Shown here in pieces: positions 31,298 through 39,606 of a stretch of DNA of 64,000 nt. The DNA comes from an uncultured Arenicella sp. (GTDB taxonomy: Bacteria; Pseudomonadota; Gammaproteobacteria; Arenicellales; Arenicellaceae). The stretch's first letter is position 1. Each line of letters opens with the position of its first letter. The stretch is taken from contig CALINO010000063.1 in NCBI GenBank assembly GCA_938045295.1, positions 1-64,000 on the forward strand, given 5' to 3'. The position numbers and the translations under genes are program-made. The notes under the pieces are model-generated. The model did not search any database. It had not been told where the DNA came from and worked only from the letters and a program-made list of their open reading frames with translations.

Positions 31298-32773
31298 TTA
31301 GCCGCGAAATAACGAGCCTAAAATGCCCCTTATTACGCGCCGGCCTAATTGTGAGCCGATTGCTCGCGCAGCACTTTTAACAAACGCTTCGGTAGGGGTT
31401 TGCCTATTGGAACGGCGACGCTTGGGAGCTTCAGACGCTTGTCTTGCTTCTTCGAGAGCCACTTGCTCTTCCTGAGCGGCGATTTTTTCAGCGCGGACTG
31501 CCAGCATTTCATGCGCCGACTCTCTGTCCAGTGGTGTGTCGTAGCGACCTCGGTAAGGTGAGCGACTTATTTGTTCGGCGCGCTCTTCATCATTCATCGG
31601 GCCAATTCGCGACTCCGGCGGGCGTATTAAAATACGCTCTACTTGACTCGGTACACCTTCAGAATTCAGTGTGCTAACCAATGCCTCACCGACCCCCAGT
31701 TGGGTAATTACTTCTGATGTATCTAATTCTGGGTTTTCTCTGAAGGTTTCCGCCACGGTTTTGACCGCCTTTTGATCCTTCGGTGTGAAGGCACGTAAAG
31801 CGTGTTGAATTTTCAGCCCGAGTTGCCCGAGTATTTCTTCAGGAACATCCAGCGGGCTTTGAGAAATAAAGTAAATGCCGACGCCTTTAGAACGAATTAA
31901 GCGAACCACTTGCTCCACTTTTTCAAGCAGTACTTTAGGGGCACTATCGAACAGTAAATGCGCCTCATCAAAAAACATCACAAATTTCGGCTTATCAGCA
32001 TCCCCGACTTCAGGTAACGACTCAAATAATTCAGACAACAACCAAAGCAAAAACGTGCAGTAAAGCTTTGGAGATTTTTGCAATAATGTGTTCGAGTCTA
32101 AAATATTGATGACGCCGCGGCCTGAAAAATCGACACTCATTAAATCTTGCAGTTCAATCGCAGGTTCGCCTAGAAAGAATTCGGCGCCTTGTTCTTCAAG
32201 AACGATTAAGCCGCGCTGGATGGCGCCAATACTGGCGGTGGATATGTTGCCGTACTCTGATTTTAATTCTGCTCGATTGTCGCCCATCCAGACGAGCATC
32301 GAACGTAAGTCTTTTAAATCAAGAATCATCAAGCCCTGATCATCGGCTATTTTGAAACACGAGTATAAAATTCCGGTTTGTGTGTCGTTTAAATCCAATA
32401 AATTTGATAGTAATAAGGGGCCAATTTCACTTACTGTGGTGCGAATCGGGTGTCCTTTTTTACCGAACACATCCCAAAACACCACCGGATTACCGCTCAT
32501 TTGGTAGTTTTCTATGCCAATGGTTTCAAGGCGTTCATCAATTTTGGGGTGAGGTTTTGCCTCTTTTCCCACGCCTGAGACATCGCCTTTCACATCAGCC
32601 AAAAAGACCGGCACACCGGCTTTAGAGAAGTTCTCAGCTAAAATTTGCAACGTAACGGTTTTTCCTGTTCCAGTGGCGCCAGCAATCATACCGTGGCGGT
32701 TGGCCATGCTGGCGTCCATGTAAACGGTTTGCGACCCGTTGCCGCCAATCAGGAGTTGGTTGTTATCATTCAT
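31298..32773 (-). CDS. HerA-like P-loop ATPase (DUF853/YjgR family)
   Basis: This 491-residue cytoplasmic ATPase has Walker A GATGTGKT (residues 32-39), then PVFLADVKGDVSGV. A Walker B-like FVMFFDEAHLLFDSAP and a VGIYFISQSPLDVPEEILGQLG segment follow. These are the marks of the DUF853/YjgR branch of HerA-type helicases. The C-terminus is basic and rich in Arg and Glu. The true function is not established; HerA relatives pump DNA or act in repair. It is a single leftward gene. Confidence 0.88.
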   Translation of the reverse strand: MNDNNQLLIGGNGSQTVYMDASMANRHGMIAGATGTGKTVTLQILAENFSKAGVPVFLADVKGDVSGVGKEAKPHPKIDERLETIGIENYQMSGNPVVFWDVFGKKGHPIRTTVSEIGPLLLSNLLDLNDTQTGILYSCFKIADDQGLMILDLKDLRSMLVWMGDNRAELKSEYGNISTASIGAIQRGLIVLEEQGAEFFLGEPAIELQDLMSVDFSGRGVINILDSNTLLQKSPKLYCTFLLWLLSELFESLPEVGDADKPKFVMFFDEAHLLFDSAPKVLLEKVEQVVRLIRSKGVGIYFISQSPLDVPEEILGQLGLKIQHALRAFTPKDQKAVKTVAETFRENPELDTSEVITQLGVGEALVSTLNSEGVPSQVERILIRPPESRIGPMNDEERAEQISRSPYRGRYDTPLDRESAHEMLAVRAEKIAAQEEQVALEEARQASEAPKRRRSNRQTPTEAFVKSAARAIGSQLGRRVIRGILGSLFRG

Positions 32774-33173: not shown

Positions 33174-33860
33174 ATGAGAATCGTAATTTTAGAGGACGAT
33201 AAAGATCAAGCTGACTTGTTAGTGGCTTGGTTGGAAGAGGCGGGGCACCAGTGCACAGTCTACAGTGACGGAAACGCGTTTATAAGAGCCTACAATAAAG
33301 ACAGTTACGATATTGTGTTGCTTGATTGGGAGGTTCCCAATATTACAGGCATTAAAGTGTTAAAGCATTTGCGTGAGCATTTGGATGCACTCGTGCCGGT
33401 GGTGTTCATTACCCAGCGCGAAGCAGAAGAAGACATGGTTGAGGCTCTTGAAGCCGGTGCGGATGATTATATGGCGAAACCGATTCGTCACCTTGAAACC
33501 ATGGCGCGAGTTAATGCCATTGCTCGCCGAGTAGGCTTTGGCGAAGAAAATACCTCAGATACGTACGAGTTTTCACCATTTACGATAGACACCAAAATAC
33601 GCCAAGTTTTTAAGAATGGTGAACAAGTAGAAATGACGCAAAAAGAATATGAGTTGACGTTATTTTTGTTTAAAAATTTAGGGCGAGTTATTTCAAGAGG
33701 GCATTTGCTAGAAATGGTATGGGGCACTAGCTCTAAACTTAATACTCGTACTGTTGATACACACATCAGCCGATTGCGCACTAAGCTGGATTTAGAAAGC
33801 GAGCAAGGCTGGAGACTCACCTCTGTTTACCGTCACGGTTACCGCCTTGAACAGGTGTGA
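33174..33860 (+). CDS. OmpR/PhoB-family response regulator
   Basis: This 228-residue two-component regulator has a receiver domain and a winged-helix DNA-binding domain. Receiver residues are present: acidic pocket Glu7-Asp8-Asp9, phospho-acceptor Asp51 (IVLLDWEVPN), the Thr of VFITQ and the Lys of MAKPI. The C-terminal domain (about residues 130-226) has EYELTLFLFKNLGRVISR and RTVDTHISRLRTKL, the OmpR recognition region. It opens a rightward cluster with a coiled-coil protein, membrane protein, small GTPase, hybrid kinase and Hpt protein. It is the likely transcriptional output of that phosphorelay. Target genes are unknown. Confidence 0.9.
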   Translation: MRIVILEDDKDQADLLVAWLEEAGHQCTVYSDGNAFIRAYNKDSYDIVLLDWEVPNITGIKVLKHLREHLDALVPVVFITQREAEEDMVEALEAGADDYMAKPIRHLETMARVNAIARRVGFGEENTSDTYEFSPFTIDTKIRQVFKNGEQVEMTQKEYELTLFLFKNLGRVISRGHLLEMVWGTSSKLNTRTVDTHISRLRTKLDLESEQGWRLTSVYRHGYRLEQV

Positions 33861-33888
33861 TTTACTAAACACCCAGGAGACACTTTAA

Positions 33889-34437
33889 ATGTCAGACTCA
33901 AAGAGCTCAAATAAAAAGAAATCAGCTGAAATCATTAATCCCGGCTTGGGGGACATCGAAAAGGTAAGAGACATACTTTTCGGTAAATACGTTTCCAGCT
34001 TTGAAGAACGCTTTGCATTGCTTGAAAAGCGATTAGAAGCCGACGTGGAGTCTCTTAAAGAGAGACTGAACAGCAAAATTGAATCATTTGATGATGCGGT
34101 AAATCAATCACTTAAACGCTTGGATGATCAGTTAGAGCAAGAAAAAGTGAATCGTGACAGCGAACTACGTTCATTACAAAATGCCATGTCTGAAGCGCAA
34201 ACCGCGTTGCAACACGCAATTAACGTTATGGAAGACCAGGCTAATCAAGATTTGGCATCAGTGCGAGCGTCTATCGAAGAAAGCCATCAAGAGTTGTTGG
34301 ATCAAACGCTGTCAGTACAAGCGACCTTGGTCGGCGAGATAGAAGCACAAAAGCAAGAGCTTTCTGGCGATAAAGTCAGTCGTCAGGCCTTGGCATTAAT
34401 GTTGGACGAAGTTGCCGTTAAGTTGCGTACCAGCTAG
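33889..34437 (+). CDS. Coiled-coil protein of the small-GTPase cluster
   Basis: This 182-residue, highly charged cytoplasmic protein has no signal peptide or membrane helix. A short N-terminal motif (IEKVRDILFGKYVSSFEERFALLEKRLE, about residues 23-50) leads into a long heptad-patterned coiled coil to about residue 160. A small C-terminal segment (VSRQALALMLDEVAVKLR) ends it. I recall proteins of this shape beside small GTPases and OmpA-like membrane proteins in other bacteria, so it is probably a structural or scaffolding part of that module. A clear AGGAG ribosome binding site precedes the ATG, 28 bases after the response regulator. Confidence 0.75.
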   Translation: MSDSKSSNKKKSAEIINPGLGDIEKVRDILFGKYVSSFEERFALLEKRLEADVESLKERLNSKIESFDDAVNQSLKRLDDQLEQEKVNRDSELRSLQNAMSEAQTALQHAINVMEDQANQDLASVRASIEESHQELLDQTLSVQATLVGEIEAQKQELSGDKVSRQALALMLDEVAVKLRTS

Positions 34438-34493
34438 CAGCATTTGAGGCTGGCTGTACCCTGACTACTAAAATTTAGAGAGCACTGTCGCTG

Positions 34494-36014
34494 ATGACCC
34501 AACTCGATGAACTACGACAAATAATTGTTGGTGACAATTCTGAGCAAATAGCAGAATTAAAAAACCGCATTGAAGACGTTGAAAAGCGTACTCACGATGT
34601 GGCCGAAGTGTTGTCGCCAGCGATTGAAAAAGAAGTTCGTTCAGGTAACCCAAGTTTATCTAAATCACTGCAAAAACCAGTGTCAGAAGGCTTAAAGCGA
34701 GCCATTCGAGCTGAGCCCGAAGAATACGCAGAAATACTATACCCAGTAATGGCTCCGTCCATTCGAAGAGCCATTGCACAGGCCATCAGTTCTATGATGG
34801 TGACCATCAATCGCACCATTGAGTCAGCCACCACAGTGCAAGGCTTAAGCCTGCGTTATCAAGCGATTAGAACAGGGGTGCCATACGCTGAATTGGCACT
34901 CAGAAGAACACTGCTGTATCGCGTTGAGCATGTCTACTTAATTCACCGAGATACGGGTGTTCCCATTTCAACCGTGCATGCGAATGACACGGGTTTTCTG
35001 GACAGCGATGCAGTAAGTGGCATGTTCTCGGCTATTCAAAGTTTTGTTCAAGACTCTTTTTCTGTAGACGATTCCAGCCGGTTGACCAACTTAAAAGTGG
35101 GCGATCATAATGTGTGGGTTGTGCACGGCGCTAACGCTATGTTGGCGTGTGTTATCCGAGGCGATGCCCCTGAGTCATTAAAAACCGAGCTTAATGACGC
35201 ATTAGATGGCATTCGCAGTCATTACGGTAATGAAATTATCAGTTTTGACGGTGATGTGTCGGTCTTCTCAGGTGTGGATTCGCACTTAAGCCCATTATTA
35301 CTCAGCGAGTTAAAAACATCCGAAGCTTTAGGGGTAACGCCAGGTAACCTTGGTGCGAGTTTATTTAAAGTCGGCTTGTTTATCTTACTGTTACTGACCG
35401 GTTGTTATTTTGCTTGGCAGTGGTGGTTGGCAAGGTCGGATGTGAATACGGTAGAGTATTTATTGCGCAACACGCCAGGAATAGCGGCAACCAATGTGTA
35501 TTGGCGAGACGGCACGCTGGTGGTGCAAGGGTTGCAAGACCCCGATGCAAAAATTCCATTCAATAGCCTAGAACAATACGGCATTGATTTGAATATGATT
35601 GAATTTGATACCATTCCTTTCAGGTCGCTTGAAGTGGATATGGAAATACAGCGTTTTGAAGACGAGCTAAATCTACCCAGTGGCGTTAGCCTTTCTGAGA
35701 TAAACGGTGAAATACACTTAGCCGGTTACGCGCCCATTAAATGGCTGCTTAAAAATGACCTTAGAATCCGGCAGTTGGCCGCTGACCGACGTTTATCCAT
35801 TGTTGCTCTGAGTGCCAGTTCGGCCTCCGTGACTGAAATGTTGAATGTGTTTTTTAAGCCACAGGCACTGCAAAAGCTAAGTTGGTCTGTGGTGAAAACC
35901 AGTCGTGCCAGAGAAGTGGTGATTCAAGGGCAGATGAAGGCCGCTGATTTAGCCATTATGAAGGGCTTGTTTGCCAATAATAACTGGATAAAAATTGCCG
36001 TAACCGAATATTAA
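34494..36014 (+). CDS. One-TM protein of the GTPase module with a possible roadblock/longin-like domain
   Basis: This 506-residue protein begins with a short coiled coil (residues 1-35) and an amphipathic helical region (55-115). Residues about 143-245 alternate strands and helices (VEHVYLIHRDTGVPIS, MFSAIQSFVQDSF, VWVVHGANAMLACVIRG). The pattern resembles roadblock/longin-type sensor domains that in other systems bind small GTPases. One membrane helix follows (289-312). The outer part (313-506) has repeated short alpha/beta units like BON/OmpA-linker domains, but it ends without a recognisable OmpA peptidoglycan-binding domain. If the N-terminal part is cytoplasmic, it could receive the GTPase encoded 15 bases downstream. 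The domain call is by pattern only. Confidence 0.65.
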   Translation: MTQLDELRQIIVGDNSEQIAELKNRIEDVEKRTHDVAEVLSPAIEKEVRSGNPSLSKSLQKPVSEGLKRAIRAEPEEYAEILYPVMAPSIRRAIAQAISSMMVTINRTIESATTVQGLSLRYQAIRTGVPYAELALRRTLLYRVEHVYLIHRDTGVPISTVHANDTGFLDSDAVSGMFSAIQSFVQDSFSVDDSSRLTNLKVGDHNVWVVHGANAMLACVIRGDAPESLKTELNDALDGIRSHYGNEIISFDGDVSVFSGVDSHLSPLLLSELKTSEALGVTPGNLGASLFKVGLFILLLLTGCYFAWQWWLARSDVNTVEYLLRNTPGIAATNVYWRDGTLVVQGLQDPDAKIPFNSLEQYGIDLNMIEFDTIPFRSLEVDMEIQRFEDELNLPSGVSLSEINGEIHLAGYAPIKWLLKNDLRIRQLAADRRLSIVALSASSASVTEMLNVFFKPQALQKLSWSVVKTSRAREVVIQGQMKAADLAIMKGLFANNNWIKIAVTEY

Positions 36015-36029
36015 TAGCGTAATTGTTGA

Positions 36030-36512
36030 ATGAAAAAGAAGAAAATATGCATGGTTGGTGACTTTTCCGTGGGCAAAACCAGTCTTACGCAAAAATTTGT
36101 TAACAATGTATTTTCCGATAAGTATCTCACTACAATCGGAGTTAAGATTGATACGGTTGAAGTTGACGATACCAAGTTGATTATTTGGGATGTGGCGGGG
36201 CGAGATTCGTTGTCCCCTGTTAATGTTAGCTATTTGGTTGGGGCTGCTGGGGTTGTTCTTGTTGCCGACGGCACTCGCCCGAGTACGGTAGAAAACCTAT
36301 TTGACATATGGTCTAGTGTCGAGAAGCGCATAGGCGATGTGCCTTGTGTGGTTGCCTTAAATAAAGCGGATTTAAGCGATGGCTGGTCTGTTAGTGAAGA
36401 AACTGTAAATAGCCTTCATGACCGTGGTTGGGAAATCTTTAAAACCAGTGCAAAACAAGGTGATGAAGTCGGCACATTGTTTGAAACTTTGGCAAGAAAA
36501 ATAAACGATTAA
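36030..36512 (+). CDS. Rab/Ras-like small GTPase
   Basis: This 160-residue protein is a single, complete small-GTPase domain. Motifs in order are G1 GDFSVGKTS (residues 10-18), the switch I Thr35 in YLTTIGVKI, G3 WDVAGRDS (Asp54-Gly57), G4 NKAD (111-114) and G5 TSAK (139-142). It looks more like eukaryotic Rab proteins than like translation or Era-type GTPases. The position of Ras Gln61 is Arg58, so intrinsic hydrolysis is probably slow or needs an outside residue. There is no C-terminal Cys for lipidation, so membrane recruitment would need a partner such as the upstream one-TM protein. No cognate GAP or GEF is identified. Confidence 0.9.
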   Translation: MKKKKICMVGDFSVGKTSLTQKFVNNVFSDKYLTTIGVKIDTVEVDDTKLIIWDVAGRDSLSPVNVSYLVGAAGVVLVADGTRPSTVENLFDIWSSVEKRIGDVPCVVALNKADLSDGWSVSEETVNSLHDRGWEIFKTSAKQGDEVGTLFETLARKIND

Positions 36513-36612
36513 CTCTTATTTCTAACTTGAAATTCATTGGATAGGAACTGAGGTAAATATAACGGTAGGCCTGTTTCAATGAGCGAGGCTTGTCTAACTG
36601 CGAATTTTTTAA

Positions 36613-38196
36613 GTGTCTGAAAATACTGGTAAAAATTTAAATAATAACGATTCTCTTAAGAGAATTAACGAAGAGCTGTTTCGTAAGCTTCAGCTTGCGT
36701 ATTTTTCTGTTGATTCAAAGATGAAGGTGTGTGATGCCTCAAAAAACCTTGTTAACTATGGTTTTCCGGAGTTGAAAAAAGGCCAGTCCGTTGAAGATAA
36801 AATTGATTTCATGATTGGTATGGATGCTGATACTGAGCTAGAGCTCCCTGTTGTTAGCAGCCCCTCAGGCATACCGGTGAGTGTTAATCTCATGCCCAGC
36901 AACGATAAATTAACGGTGCTTATTTCAAATGCTGAACGATCTACCGAACAGCATCGAATGTTGCAACAAGCCGCTAATGAAAACGAGCTTCTTGCTGAAA
37001 AGCAAAAGAAATTGATGGCTCGGTTAGAGCAAGCATCAAAAGAACTGGAAGACAAAAATCAACAATTAGAAGAAGCCGCCAGGCTGCAAACCAGTTTTAT
37101 TTCTGGGGTGTCGCACGAATTCAGAACGCCGTTGACTTCCATCATCGGATACACCAATTTAGTGCAACAAGACTTGTCTAAAATGAGCGAAGAAATTGCT
37201 CCTAGAATAGTCAAACAAGACAATGAGCAATATTTAAATGCAGTGCAGCGTTCGAGTAAGCATTTGTTATCGTTAGTTGAAAACCTGTTGGATCATGGCA
37301 AGCTGGATTCTGAAGAAATTGTAGTGAACCCCAAAAAGACCAATTTGGACGAGTTGTTTAATGACGTCAGTTTGCTTTTATCACCCTTGAGTGAAACTAA
37401 AAATATTGAATTAAACGTCAACCTCGATGCGCCTAAAGGCGTTGATGTGGTGATTGATGACAGCCGTCTAAGGCAGTGCCTTATCAACTTAGTGGGTAAT
37501 GCCATTAAATTTACCGATATTGGCAGCGTCAATCTTGATGCCAAACTCGACGGTGACGAGCTAAACGTGGTTGTGCGAGATTCCGGTATTGGTATTGGCC
37601 GCGAAGAAATGGAAAAAATCAGGCTGCCGTTTTATCAAGTTGCCGATACAGGCAAGGTGGGCACAGGCCTGGGTTTAACGATTACCGAGCGCATTGTGTC
37701 TTTAATGGGGGGCAGCTTAAGCATTGAATCGCAACTGGGCGAGGGCACTAGCGTGCATTTGACTATGCCGGCTCCGAAAATAGAGCGTGAAATATTCAGT
37801 GCTGAAATGGGGGCGTTGCCGACCGTATCAAAACTGAAGGTGCTGGTCGCTGAAGACGACTCTTTTATTGCTGACTTGGTTGTTGTCATGCTGCAAGAAA
37901 AAGGAATAGATGTGACCTGCGTTGCTAATGGCGCATTGGCGGTTGAAATGCTGCAAACAAAATCATTTGATTTGGTATTAATGGACATTCACATGCCGAT
38001 CATGGGCGGCTATCAAGCCATTGAAAAACTCAATCAGCTTGGTAATTCAGCGCCCATTGTTGTGATGAGTGCTTCTGCAACGGAATCGGATCAAGAAAGA
38101 GCGGCTCAACTGGGGTGCGCGGCATACTTAGTGAAGCCGGTTGATGTTGAAGAAATTATTTCCATTGCTCATACCGTTACATCCCCGCAACAATAA
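36613..38196 (+). CDS. Hybrid histidine kinase with C-terminal receiver
   Basis: This 527-residue soluble kinase has an N-terminal PAS-like sensor region (about residues 20-108) and a coiled coil (112-158). The HisKA domain carries phospho-acceptor His168 (VSHEFRTPLTSIIGY). The ATPase domain has N box NLVGNAIKF (292-300), G1 DSGIGIG and G2 GTGLGL. A receiver domain follows, with acidic Glu414-Asp415-Asp416, phospho-acceptor Asp458 and Lys508. There is no membrane helix, so the signal is intracellular or comes from a protein partner. The GTPase 100 bases upstream and the Hpt gene downstream make a multistep relay likely. The start is GTG without an obvious ribosome binding site. Confidence 0.9.
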   Translation: MSENTGKNLNNNDSLKRINEELFRKLQLAYFSVDSKMKVCDASKNLVNYGFPELKKGQSVEDKIDFMIGMDADTELELPVVSSPSGIPVSVNLMPSNDKLTVLISNAERSTEQHRMLQQAANENELLAEKQKKLMARLEQASKELEDKNQQLEEAARLQTSFISGVSHEFRTPLTSIIGYTNLVQQDLSKMSEEIAPRIVKQDNEQYLNAVQRSSKHLLSLVENLLDHGKLDSEEIVVNPKKTNLDELFNDVSLLLSPLSETKNIELNVNLDAPKGVDVVIDDSRLRQCLINLVGNAIKFTDIGSVNLDAKLDGDELNVVVRDSGIGIGREEMEKIRLPFYQVADTGKVGTGLGLTITERIVSLMGGSLSIESQLGEGTSVHLTMPAPKIEREIFSAEMGALPTVSKLKVLVAEDDSFIADLVVVMLQEKGIDVTCVANGALAVEMLQTKSFDLVLMDIHMPIMGGYQAIEKLNQLGNSAPIVVMSASATESDQERAAQLGCAAYLVKPVDVEEIISIAHTVTSPQQ

Positions 38197-38237
38197 ACTG
38201 AAGCTCATACGCTCAGGCACAGTTAAAATTATTAAAA

Positions 38238-38546
38238 ATGTCTTTAGGAAATGGATCAATGAGTACAGACTCACCTCAAGTTCAGGCGCTTAAAGAGCGC
38301 TACAAAGAAAGCTTTCAAGAAAAACTCACCGTCGTTCAAAGCATGCTTGACGATATGGGACGTATGGAAGACTTTACGTCAATACGAGAAGAGCTGCATA
38401 AGCTTGCTGGCTCTTCTGGCATGTACGGTTACAGCGATATTTCCGGCGCATGCCGCAGCGCTATCGAATGCATTGATGACGACCACGAAAGTGGGTTGGC
38501 CATGTTCCTTAGTCACTTAATTGGTTTGCTTGAGCAGCAGGTATAG
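38238..38546 (+). CDS. Stand-alone Hpt phosphotransfer protein
   Basis: This 102-residue helical protein has the Hpt signature around His54 (ELHKLAGSSGMYGYSDIS), so it should accept a phosphate from the receiver of the hybrid kinase and pass it to a response regulator. The protein with the matching receiver is probably the OmpR-type regulator at the start of the cluster. The ATG at 38259 (residue 8, MSTDSPQ) is an equally plausible start. Confidence 0.87.
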   Translation: MSLGNGSMSTDSPQVQALKERYKESFQEKLTVVQSMLDDMGRMEDFTSIREELHKLAGSSGMYGYSDISGACRSAIECIDDDHESGLAMFLSHLIGLLEQQV

Positions 38547-38594: not shown

Positions 38595-39440
38595 ATGCGT
38601 TGGAGAGGAAGGCGTCAAAGTAGAAATGTAGAAGACCGCAGGGGGCAGCGCTTTATTCGCAGCAAAAAGGGCGCTGGTGGTGGCGCCATGATCTTATTGT
38701 TGCTGGCCGGTTTGTTCTTTGGTGAAGACGTACAGCGTATTTTGTCATTCTTTGTTGGTTCTGGTGGTCAGCAAGTTCAACAATCGTCTCGTTCTCCACA
38801 GCAAGTGGCGGCTAACGACGCTAATAAGCAATTTGTAAGTACCATCTTGGCTGAAACAGAAGATACCTGGAATGCCATATTTGCTCAATCAGGTGTGCAG
38901 TATCAAGCACCTAAATTAGTATTGTATGAAGGTCAAACGTCTACGGCGTGTGGTGTTGGGCAGGCCGCTTCAGGCCCATTTTATTGCCCAGGCGACTATA
39001 AAATTTACATCGACTTAAGTTTCATGAACGAATTGAAGCGCATGGGCGCGCCGGGTGATTTTGCCTTTGCCTATGTGATTGCGCATGAGGTTGGTCATCA
39101 CGTGCAAAACTTAATCGGTGTGGCAAAAGACGTTAGGCAAAAACAAGCACGTGCCAATAAAGCCACGGCGAATGCTTTGTCAGTGAAAATGGAATTGCAA
39201 GCGGATTGCTTAGCAGGTATTTGGATTAATCACACCGAACGCCGAAATTCTATTTTAGAGCAAGGTGATATTGAAGAGGGCTTCGCTGCTGCTGCCGCAG
39301 TAGGCGATGATAAAATCATGTCGCGCGCGGGTATGGCGCCGCGCCGAGAAAATTTCACCCATGGCAGTTCTAAAGAACGCATGTATTGGTTTCAGCAAGG
39401 TATGAAATCGGGCTCAATTGATAATTGCCAAACGCTGTGA
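38595..39440 (+). CDS. ypfJ: Neutral zinc metallopeptidase (YpfJ family)
   Basis: This 281-residue membrane-anchored protein matches the YpfJ/neutral zinc metallopeptidase family. A basic N-terminus (MRWRGRRQSRN) precedes one membrane helix (about residues 28-48) and a periplasmic domain. The zinc motif is HEVGH at 164-168 (AYVIAHEVGHHVQNL); ELQADCLAGIW further on probably gives the third ligand. The natural substrate of the family is unknown. It is the last rightward gene before a strong terminator and may or may not belong to the preceding cluster. Confidence 0.9.
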   Translation: MRWRGRRQSRNVEDRRGQRFIRSKKGAGGGAMILLLLAGLFFGEDVQRILSFFVGSGGQQVQQSSRSPQQVAANDANKQFVSTILAETEDTWNAIFAQSGVQYQAPKLVLYEGQTSTACGVGQAASGPFYCPGDYKIYIDLSFMNELKRMGAPGDFAFAYVIAHEVGHHVQNLIGVAKDVRQKQARANKATANALSVKMELQADCLAGIWINHTERRNSILEQGDIEEGFAAAAAVGDDKIMSRAGMAPRRENFTHGSSKERMYWFQQGMKSGSIDNCQTL

Positions 39441-39564: not shown

Positions 39565-39606
39565 ACAGCCAATTGCTAAATTTGATTAGCAATTGGCTGT
39601 TTTTAT
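39565..39606 (+). terminator. Rho-independent terminator after the metallopeptidase gene
   Basis: ACAGCCAATTGCTAA (39565-39579) and TTAGCAATTGGCTGT (39586-39600) are perfect fifteen-base inverted repeats followed by TTTTTATT. Confidence 0.88.

Follow-up and report, generated by a model that had tools for sequence, protein, structure and literature searches.

The gene cluster described here occupies positions 33,174 to 38,546 of a 64,000-nucleotide stretch from an uncultured Arenicella sp. (assembly GCA_938045295.1, contig CALINO010000063.1, positions 1 to 64,000), referred to below as the window. Its closest described counterpart is the Group 1 Rup gene set, known from the computational description only of Wuichet & Sogaard-Andersen 2014 (PMC4316618; this and the other cited papers were available in part, and statements about them refer to those parts). 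Both share a single-domain Ras-superfamily GTPase without the G3 Gln, a coiled-coil neighbour, a membrane protein with a conserved domain (left unknown in that paper) and an inner-membrane helix, and an output kinase with an invariant N-terminal Gln. In the window, by comparison, the kinase joins a phosphorelay with a stand-alone Hpt and an OmpR-family regulator, and its relatives include HD-GYP outputs, none of which is named for Rup in the available text. The window membrane protein also lacks an OmpA domain, which was reported 'often' for Group 1 and is thus not defining, and its N-terminal domain is assigned a longin fold. The initial annotation had proposed an undescribed system, a claim that does not hold, as the set of GTPase, coiled-coil protein, membrane protein and histidine kinase is the Group 1 Rup set of 2014. 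The cluster is therefore known in kind, while the full phosphorelay version and the predicted longin partner are new relative to the available part of that paper, together with the PAS domain and Gln118 helix of the kinase and a DILFG motif of the coiled-coil-like protein that is lost alongside the GTPase.

Other known systems are more distant. Actinobacterial conservons (Cvn; PMC13343842, PMC4316618) also combine a small GTPase and a histidine kinase in one conserved operon, but they contain an MglB-type roadblock protein, CvnC and an MglA-family GTPase, and they have no response regulator, whereas an OmpR-family regulator is present in the window (33174-33860). No Robl_LC7 match was found at E 1 in the six cluster proteins and two neighbours (for the coiled-coil-like protein, among the best 25 of 26 matches), and conservon identity was rejected for lack of a roadblock gene. 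The MglA/MglB/RomR/Frz system of Myxococcus (PMC4316618) likewise has a small GTPase, a roadblock/longin-type partner and receiver-domain proteins, but its GTPase belongs to the MglA and not the Rup family, its genes are scattered and its output is polarity. Mon1-Ccz1 and Inturned-Fuzzy, eukaryotic longin guanine nucleotide exchange factors (GEFs) of Rabs (PMC6864590), are longin-fold partners of Rab-like GTPases; they carry multiple longin domains and function as complexes, in contrast to the single, predicted, membrane-anchored longin of the window. Finally, RdcA/RdcB-DgcE of E. coli (PMC6510439) resembles the arrangement proposed here in that a PAS-containing signalling enzyme has a GTPase partner as its direct regulator, but RdcA is a dynamin-like protein that targets a MASE1 domain, and no kinase is involved.

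Layout and joint inheritance of the cluster

From the response regulator (RR) to the Hpt gene, the six genes are separated by 28, 56, 15, 100 and 41 bases:

33174..33860, + strand: OmpR-family RR, 228 amino acids (aa), receiver and winged helix
33889..34437, + strand: coiled-coil-like cytoplasmic protein (CC), 182 aa
34494..36014, + strand: protein with one transmembrane (TM) segment and a predicted longin domain ('Unc' protein in the Rup literature), 506 aa
36030..36512, + strand: Rup-type small GTPase, 160 aa
36613..38196, + strand: soluble hybrid histidine kinase, 527 aa, GTG start
38238..38546, + strand: stand-alone Hpt, 102 aa

Open reading frames (ORFs) and spacing, including the 15 and 100 bases around the GTPase gene, agree with the six rightward genes of the initial annotation, and its identification of a GTPase, a hybrid kinase with receiver, an Hpt and an OmpR-type regulator was borne out by Pfam, which was run on eight proteins (the six cluster members and two neighbours). 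Hydropathy likewise gave one TM segment in the 506-aa protein and none in the kinase (maximum 1.42), as had been proposed. The RR matched Response_reg (3.3e-24) and Trans_reg_C (4.1e-20), with D51, T80 and K102 invariant in 14 orthologues, the kinase matched HisKA, HATPase_c and Response_reg, and the last gene matched the Hpt profile (2.3e-7, 31.4 bits, cut-off 24.6). The residues of a multistep phosphorelay are complete:

37114..37116, + strand: kinase His168 (HEFRTP), at least 90% conserved in 48 kinases
37984..37986, + strand: kinase receiver Asp458, at least 90% conserved in 48 kinases
38397-38399, + strand: Hpt His54, HKLAGSSGMYGY, the His invariant in 16 orthologues
33324-33326, + strand: RR phosphoacceptor Asp51

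Of the eight Hpt matches in the genome, seven lie in frames of 576-2480 aa and that of the cluster alone in a short frame, and it is therefore the natural partner of the kinase receiver.

The distribution of the genes was surveyed in 61 genomes from the same genus, family and order, with thresholds of E 1e-60 for the RR and E 1e-90 for the kinase; the GTPase count omits one weak G039 match, located in a 463-aa frame. The GTPase and the membrane protein were found in an identical set of 18 genomes, and the kinase in 17 of these, being truncated at a contig end in the 18th (G018, L040). RR orthologues were present in 24 genomes, i.e., in 17 of the 18 with the GTPase (in G001 the gene is cut by a contig end) and in seven without it, while CC orthologues were present in 20, the 18 GTPase genomes plus G006 and G015. 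The full six-gene order was recovered in 12 of 20 fetched homologous stretches, among them L038 with its in-frame stops, and in L039 as a 13th; four further stretches, cut by contig ends, hold a partial cluster (L035, L037, L040, L044), and three deviate (L042, L043 and L041, where the GTPase stands alone). Other families and orders also contain the arrangement. With its order conserved in homologous stretches, the six-gene arrangement is not a product of chance, and the GTPase module and the phosphorelay are one jointly inherited unit; a reading as chance neighbours was rejected by the coupled presence and absence. The joint system of the initial annotation stands insofar as RR and kinase accompany GTPase and membrane protein throughout the order, with one contig-end cut each, and the objection foreseen there, that the modules might be separate in relatives, fails in the main; separate halves nevertheless exist (see below). 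A variant was seen in two f9 genomes (L042, L043), where the hybrid kinase of a Rup-like cluster ends in what looks by eye like an Hpt, the Unc protein is shorter, and no comparable OmpR gene was found.

The GTPase, its membrane partner and the coiled-coil-like protein

The GTPase matched Pfam Ras (2.7e-27) and TIGR00231 small_GTP (73.2 bits, cut-off 42.5), with Rab8A as the closest solved sequence (78 bits), and gave the one strong Ras-family match of its genome, beside two weaker ones. As in Group 1 Rup, the G1 motif GxxxxGK[ST] and the G4 motif NKxD were found in all 108 distinct GTPases. No Gln followed DxxG in any of 107 (the 108th yielded no motif, and for a few sequences a less strict pattern was used), the motif in the window being:

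36189-36203, + strand: G3 motif DVAGR, without catalytic Gln

The hydropathy maximum of 1.75 lies within the G domain. Rabs are lipidated, whereas the window GTPase has no C-terminal lipidation Cys. A second, lone Rup-type GTPase, 47% identical and without the module, was seen in G014 (L041 990-1478, contig C51).

For the 506-aa membrane protein, no Pfam match was obtained at E 1 or better. A profile search found relatives in 31 of 369 class genomes. Its AlphaFold model, built with 51 sequences, has a pLDDT of 83 and a pTM of 0.49, and the following parts were distinguished:

34503..34532, + strand: N-terminal LDELRQIIVG, resembling the CC motif described below
34914..35315, + strand: longin domain, residues 141-274, predicted fold
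35349..35408, + strand: TM helix, about residues 286-305 (hydropathy maximum 2.03 at residue 286; model helix 286-325)
35481..36011, + strand: periplasmic part (the side being inferred), residues 330-506, repeated strand-strand-helix-strand units, BON/YscD-like

The order of a conserved N-terminal part followed by one TM segment is that of Group 1 Rup. Residues 140-249 were modelled as strand-strand-helix-strand-strand-strand-helix, and the top VIA match was Fuzzy-Inturned, the Rab23 GEF (Z 13.8, 2.8 Å over 125 residues), followed by Vamp7 longin (13.6), CPLANE, TRAPP (13.1), Ykt6 and Sec22b, with Mon1-Ccz1 at 11.7 and MglB at 10.7; the VIA matches listed were mostly longins, adaptin longins and roadblocks. 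The best Z in VIA without a clear match is typically 7-8, but 14 for mostly helical models, and the domain here is mixed alpha/beta. Foldseek returned nine matches at E 0.001 or better, namely adaptin longins, TRAPP and Mon1-Ccz1 (best E 2.3e-4 for the longin region), plus CdsD (E 2.3e-4) and YscD (E 3.9e-4) for the part beyond the membrane, where model confidence is 92-97 per ten residues. When 99 longin regions were scanned with Pfam at E 0.1, four longin/roadblock-family matches appeared amid scattered chance families. The domain left unknown in the Group 1 Rup membrane protein is thus predicted to have a longin fold, where its equation with the N-terminal domain of the window protein rests on position and architecture. 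No link of Rup to longin was found among the open-licence PMC literature listed, although one may still be in print; a table in PMC4917890 gives longin/roadblock as present in bacteria, and in the available part does not name this protein. Pfam found no OmpA domain in the window protein, and found one in 32 of 51 relatives. The full membrane-protein profile matched 396 of 398 genomes across the phylum, mostly via OmpA, which is not a count of systems.

The CC protein has no TM segment by hydropathy and adjoins the Unc gene in relatives. Its Pfam matches were weak, below cut-off and in many cases to coiled-coil families, and it is on these matches, not on a coiled-coil predictor, that it was counted as the coiled-coil neighbour of Group 1 Rup. 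A docking motif is proposed near its N-terminus:

33955..33984, + strand: CC residues 23-32, IEKVRDILFG, proposed docking motif

Of 84 distinct CC proteins, 83 show the motif pattern and one has LSQLKEILFG instead, and a similar motif starts 54 of 107 membrane-protein relatives, compared with 68 of 20000 random 25-residue windows. Alignment of the CC protein with the membrane-protein N-terminus by hhalign gave E 3.6e-4 and a probability of 37% in local mode, and E 0.046 in global mode. In G006 and G015, the CC protein is 45-47% identical to that of the window and retains its C-terminus, while unrelated residues and a short gap take the place of IEKVRDILFG. Since the motif is gone in these two genomes without the GTPase, it may dock the CC protein to the lost machinery, and the conserved C-terminus of the motif-less protein suggests a second, independent role.

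Kinase outputs and the proposed mechanism

The kinase consists of a PAS domain, a signalling helix, HisKA, HATPase and receiver. Residues 1-150 were predicted to form a PAS domain and a long helix (pLDDT 91, pTM 0.70), the best VIA match of the PAS model being the ThkA PAS (Z 9.6). About ten residues into the helix lies a residue that corresponds to the invariant Gln of Group 1 Rup outputs:

36964..36966, + strand: Gln118

Gln118 is invariant in 48 of 48 kinases and is the sole invariant column among 47 N-terminal regions; by eye, a Gln occupies a similar place before HD-GYP and GGDEF-EAL outputs. The kinase alignment (A4) was made from the named loci, where the L029 kinase holds a stop codon; of the candidate sets, A3 omits L123, A4 omits L073, L119 and L123, and A5 omits these and L068. 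At L178 (1011-1439), a stand-alone 143-aa protein beside the GTPase matches only the PAS-Gln-helix region of the kinase and has no Pfam match, and in the HD-GYP outputs of L173 (4869-6338) and L174 (11189-12676) the N-terminal region occurs twice, with a Gln helix after each copy (by eye).

Outputs were compared in 31 matching genomes of the class (28 fetched neighbourhoods, the window and two same-genus genomes). The GTPase adjoins Unc in 28 of them, L156 ending with its contig. Output types were assigned from profile matches, Pfam or sequence, with L160 and L179 judged from their sequences instead of Pfam; 18 were kinase-type, seven HD-GYP, one GGDEF-EAL and five unassigned. Of the 18 kinase-type clusters, 11 have an OmpR regulator next to them, compared with none of the eight with other outputs (Fisher p 0.0074; lineages not independent), and at least three of the seven OmpR-less kinase-type clusters are cut by contig ends (L161, L170, L180). 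In the phylum search, in which by eye some 50 rows covered the Unc domain, 29 loci with 1.5 kb flanks held the GTPase in 26 and the CC gene in 28 cases, counted by locus. An OmpR gene was present at 41 of 79 loci of the named set, which was chosen by similarity to the window membrane protein and is hence biased. On the GTPase tree, which omits L124-L153, L159, L178, L061 and rows outside the length limits, the HD-GYP label needs four changes, at least two of them forced by well-supported branches (bootstrap not settled). The outputs thus vary between kinase, HD-GYP and GGDEF-EAL while the core is constant, which fits outputs placed downstream of the GTPase.

We consider it somewhat better than an even chance that the cluster is a G-protein-coupled phosphorelay, i.e., a Group 1 Rup GTPase module with a hybrid kinase as its swappable output, and the best reading of its action is a putative GTP-state switch that gates the kinase at the inner membrane. 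The part of the longin protein beyond the membrane would read the state of the envelope or peptidoglycan, and the longin domain, probably dimeric, would recruit the GTPase to the inner membrane and set its nucleotide state in the manner of longin Rab-GEFs or, alternatively, of an MglB-like GTPase-activating protein (GAP). The GTP-loaded GTPase would then dock on the PAS-helix unit and turn the kinase on or off, where Gln118 may reach the GTPase active site and end the signal. Phosphate would pass from kinase His168 to receiver Asp458, Hpt His54 and regulator Asp51, and thereby affect transcription, with the CC protein as a scaffold or target tethered via its DILFG motif. The joint inheritance of a Rab-like GTPase, a membrane protein with a predicted fold of the Rab-regulator type and a phosphorelay makes a bacterial pathway from small GTPase to gene expression testable, and the predicted longin partner, the DNA-binding regulator as output, the candidate catalytic Gln and the docking motif lend themselves to specific, simple experiments.

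A more far-reaching version, which we put forward tentatively and hold to be less than even in probability, is a bacterial Rab cascade, in which a membrane-anchored longin GEF would load a Rab-like GTPase, and the GTP-bound form would in turn gate exchangeable outputs (phosphorelay kinase, HD-GYP, GGDEF-EAL) via one PAS-Gln-helix interface. If true, bacteria would also use longins to regulate Rab-like GTPases, here in an operon-encoded form of envelope sensing with a direct line to transcription, which bears on the existence of longin-Rab pairs outside eukaryotes and archaea.

The direction of control could also be reversed, as has been proposed for conservons: the PAS-Gln helix of the kinase would act as a GAP and the GTPase would be the output, positioning a membrane machine, with the phosphorelay as a side branch. 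Gln118 is invariant while the GTPase has no Gln, and this pattern agrees, here on a newly gathered set, with the proposal of the 2014 authors that the Group 1 Gln acts in trans to end the signal; they also drew a parallel between Group 1 Rup and the conservon, whose output they considered to be the GTPase (PMC4316618), and the CC and membrane partners would be available as targets. Conservons, however, have no response regulator, whereas OmpR is kept beside most kinase-type clusters, and the differing outputs over a constant core fit control in the opposite direction, so that we regard this alternative as rather unlikely.

Separate occurrence of the parts and flanking genes

The phosphorelay half is found without the GTPase in order-mates. 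In the seven genomes with an RR but no GTPase, the RR orthologue is 52-59% identical, and in five of them (L227, L228, L231-L233) it is followed by its own Hpt with an identical HxLAGSxxMYGY signature, about ten bases apart in L228. In L229 and L230, a large ORF matching the kinase core lies downstream of the RR, with a more distant Hpt-like ORF after it in L229; at these loci (L229 5513-8140, L230 9014-11635), the RR is followed by a secreted-looking protein with a LysM-like start (by eye) and the protein matching the kinase core. In the window, the Rup genes sit between RR and Hpt. As the halves also occur apart, the joint system appears to be built from two older modules.

At the locus itself, two neighbours, which flank the cluster in most Arenicella stretches, serve as reference points:

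31298-32773, - strand: HerA-type ATPase, upstream flank
38595-39440, + strand: neutral zinc peptidase (Zn-peptidase), downstream flank, 48 bases past Hpt and in the same direction

The Zn-peptidase was considered as a system member and rejected, because its gene (in 35 of 61 genomes) persists where the cluster is absent. G006 and G015, of the same genus and 82% and 99% complete, gave no GTPase, membrane protein, RR or kinase match at the thresholds used, and no Hpt was found between HerA and Zn-peptidase, where the CC gene was the sole gene found (L225 9116-9640 in G015, L226 7283-7807 in G006).

These loci bear on a further alternative, in which the Rup module came to lie between the genes of an RR and its Hpt and the two are held together by operon expression without being coupled. 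The GTPase-less RR-Hpt pairs and the position of the Rup genes in the window favour it. Against it, RR and kinase are missing as well in G006 and G015, where HerA and Zn-peptidase stay, OmpR is absent from all eight HD-GYP and GGDEF-EAL clusters of the class survey, and the kinase has both a receiver that requires an Hpt and the conserved Gln helix; we therefore think it improbable.

Several observations nevertheless weigh against the GTPase-gated phosphorelay. The absence of the genes from G006 and G015 is probably a single event, because their CC genes are alike, and the CC gene, which persists there without the others, is therefore not strictly part of the unit. The RR, found with its own Hpt without the GTPase in five order-mates, may therefore answer other kinases. 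In L167 and L171, no GTPase stands beside Unc although the contig continues, and at Thiotrichaceae loci without a GTPase in the fetched stretch (e.g., L101-L104) the CC motif is kept. The longin profile PF19036 matched at 17.5 bits, below its cut-off of 26.1, a longin profile gave nothing significant against PDB sequences (best roadblock match E 0.72), and model confidence in the longin region is uneven, at 63-92 per ten residues and 47 at its end. A longin fold by itself would not show function, and it is from conservation that Gln118 may be taken to act in trans.

Least probable, and in our view very unlikely, is a polarity device like MglA-MglB-RomR, with the longin protein acting as GAP to restrict the GTPase to a pole or the septum and the phosphorelay reporting on it: MglB is among the VIA matches, longin and roadblock are related folds (PMC3521125, PMC10933270) and the OmpA domains of relatives suggest peptidoglycan anchoring, but longins of Rab-GEF complexes and SNAREs outscore MglB (13.8 vs 10.7), and none of the eight proteins scanned points to motility or a pilus.

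Some minor features of these loci were also recorded. Promoter and terminator scans of the window gave scores below shuffled means; a terminator-like hairpin lies at 39565-39600, after the Zn-peptidase gene, and weaker hairpins lie inside genes. In L038 (G004), the RR, membrane-protein and kinase genes are each interrupted by an in-frame TAA and the frame of the Zn-peptidase is broken, which reflects either decay or assembly error. At Thiotrichaceae-type loci, from large sulfur bacteria (L089, L090, L091, L095, L113, L121 and others), Unc proteins reach about 750-1470 aa, sometimes with two Unc in tandem and in some cases without a GTPase in the stretch.

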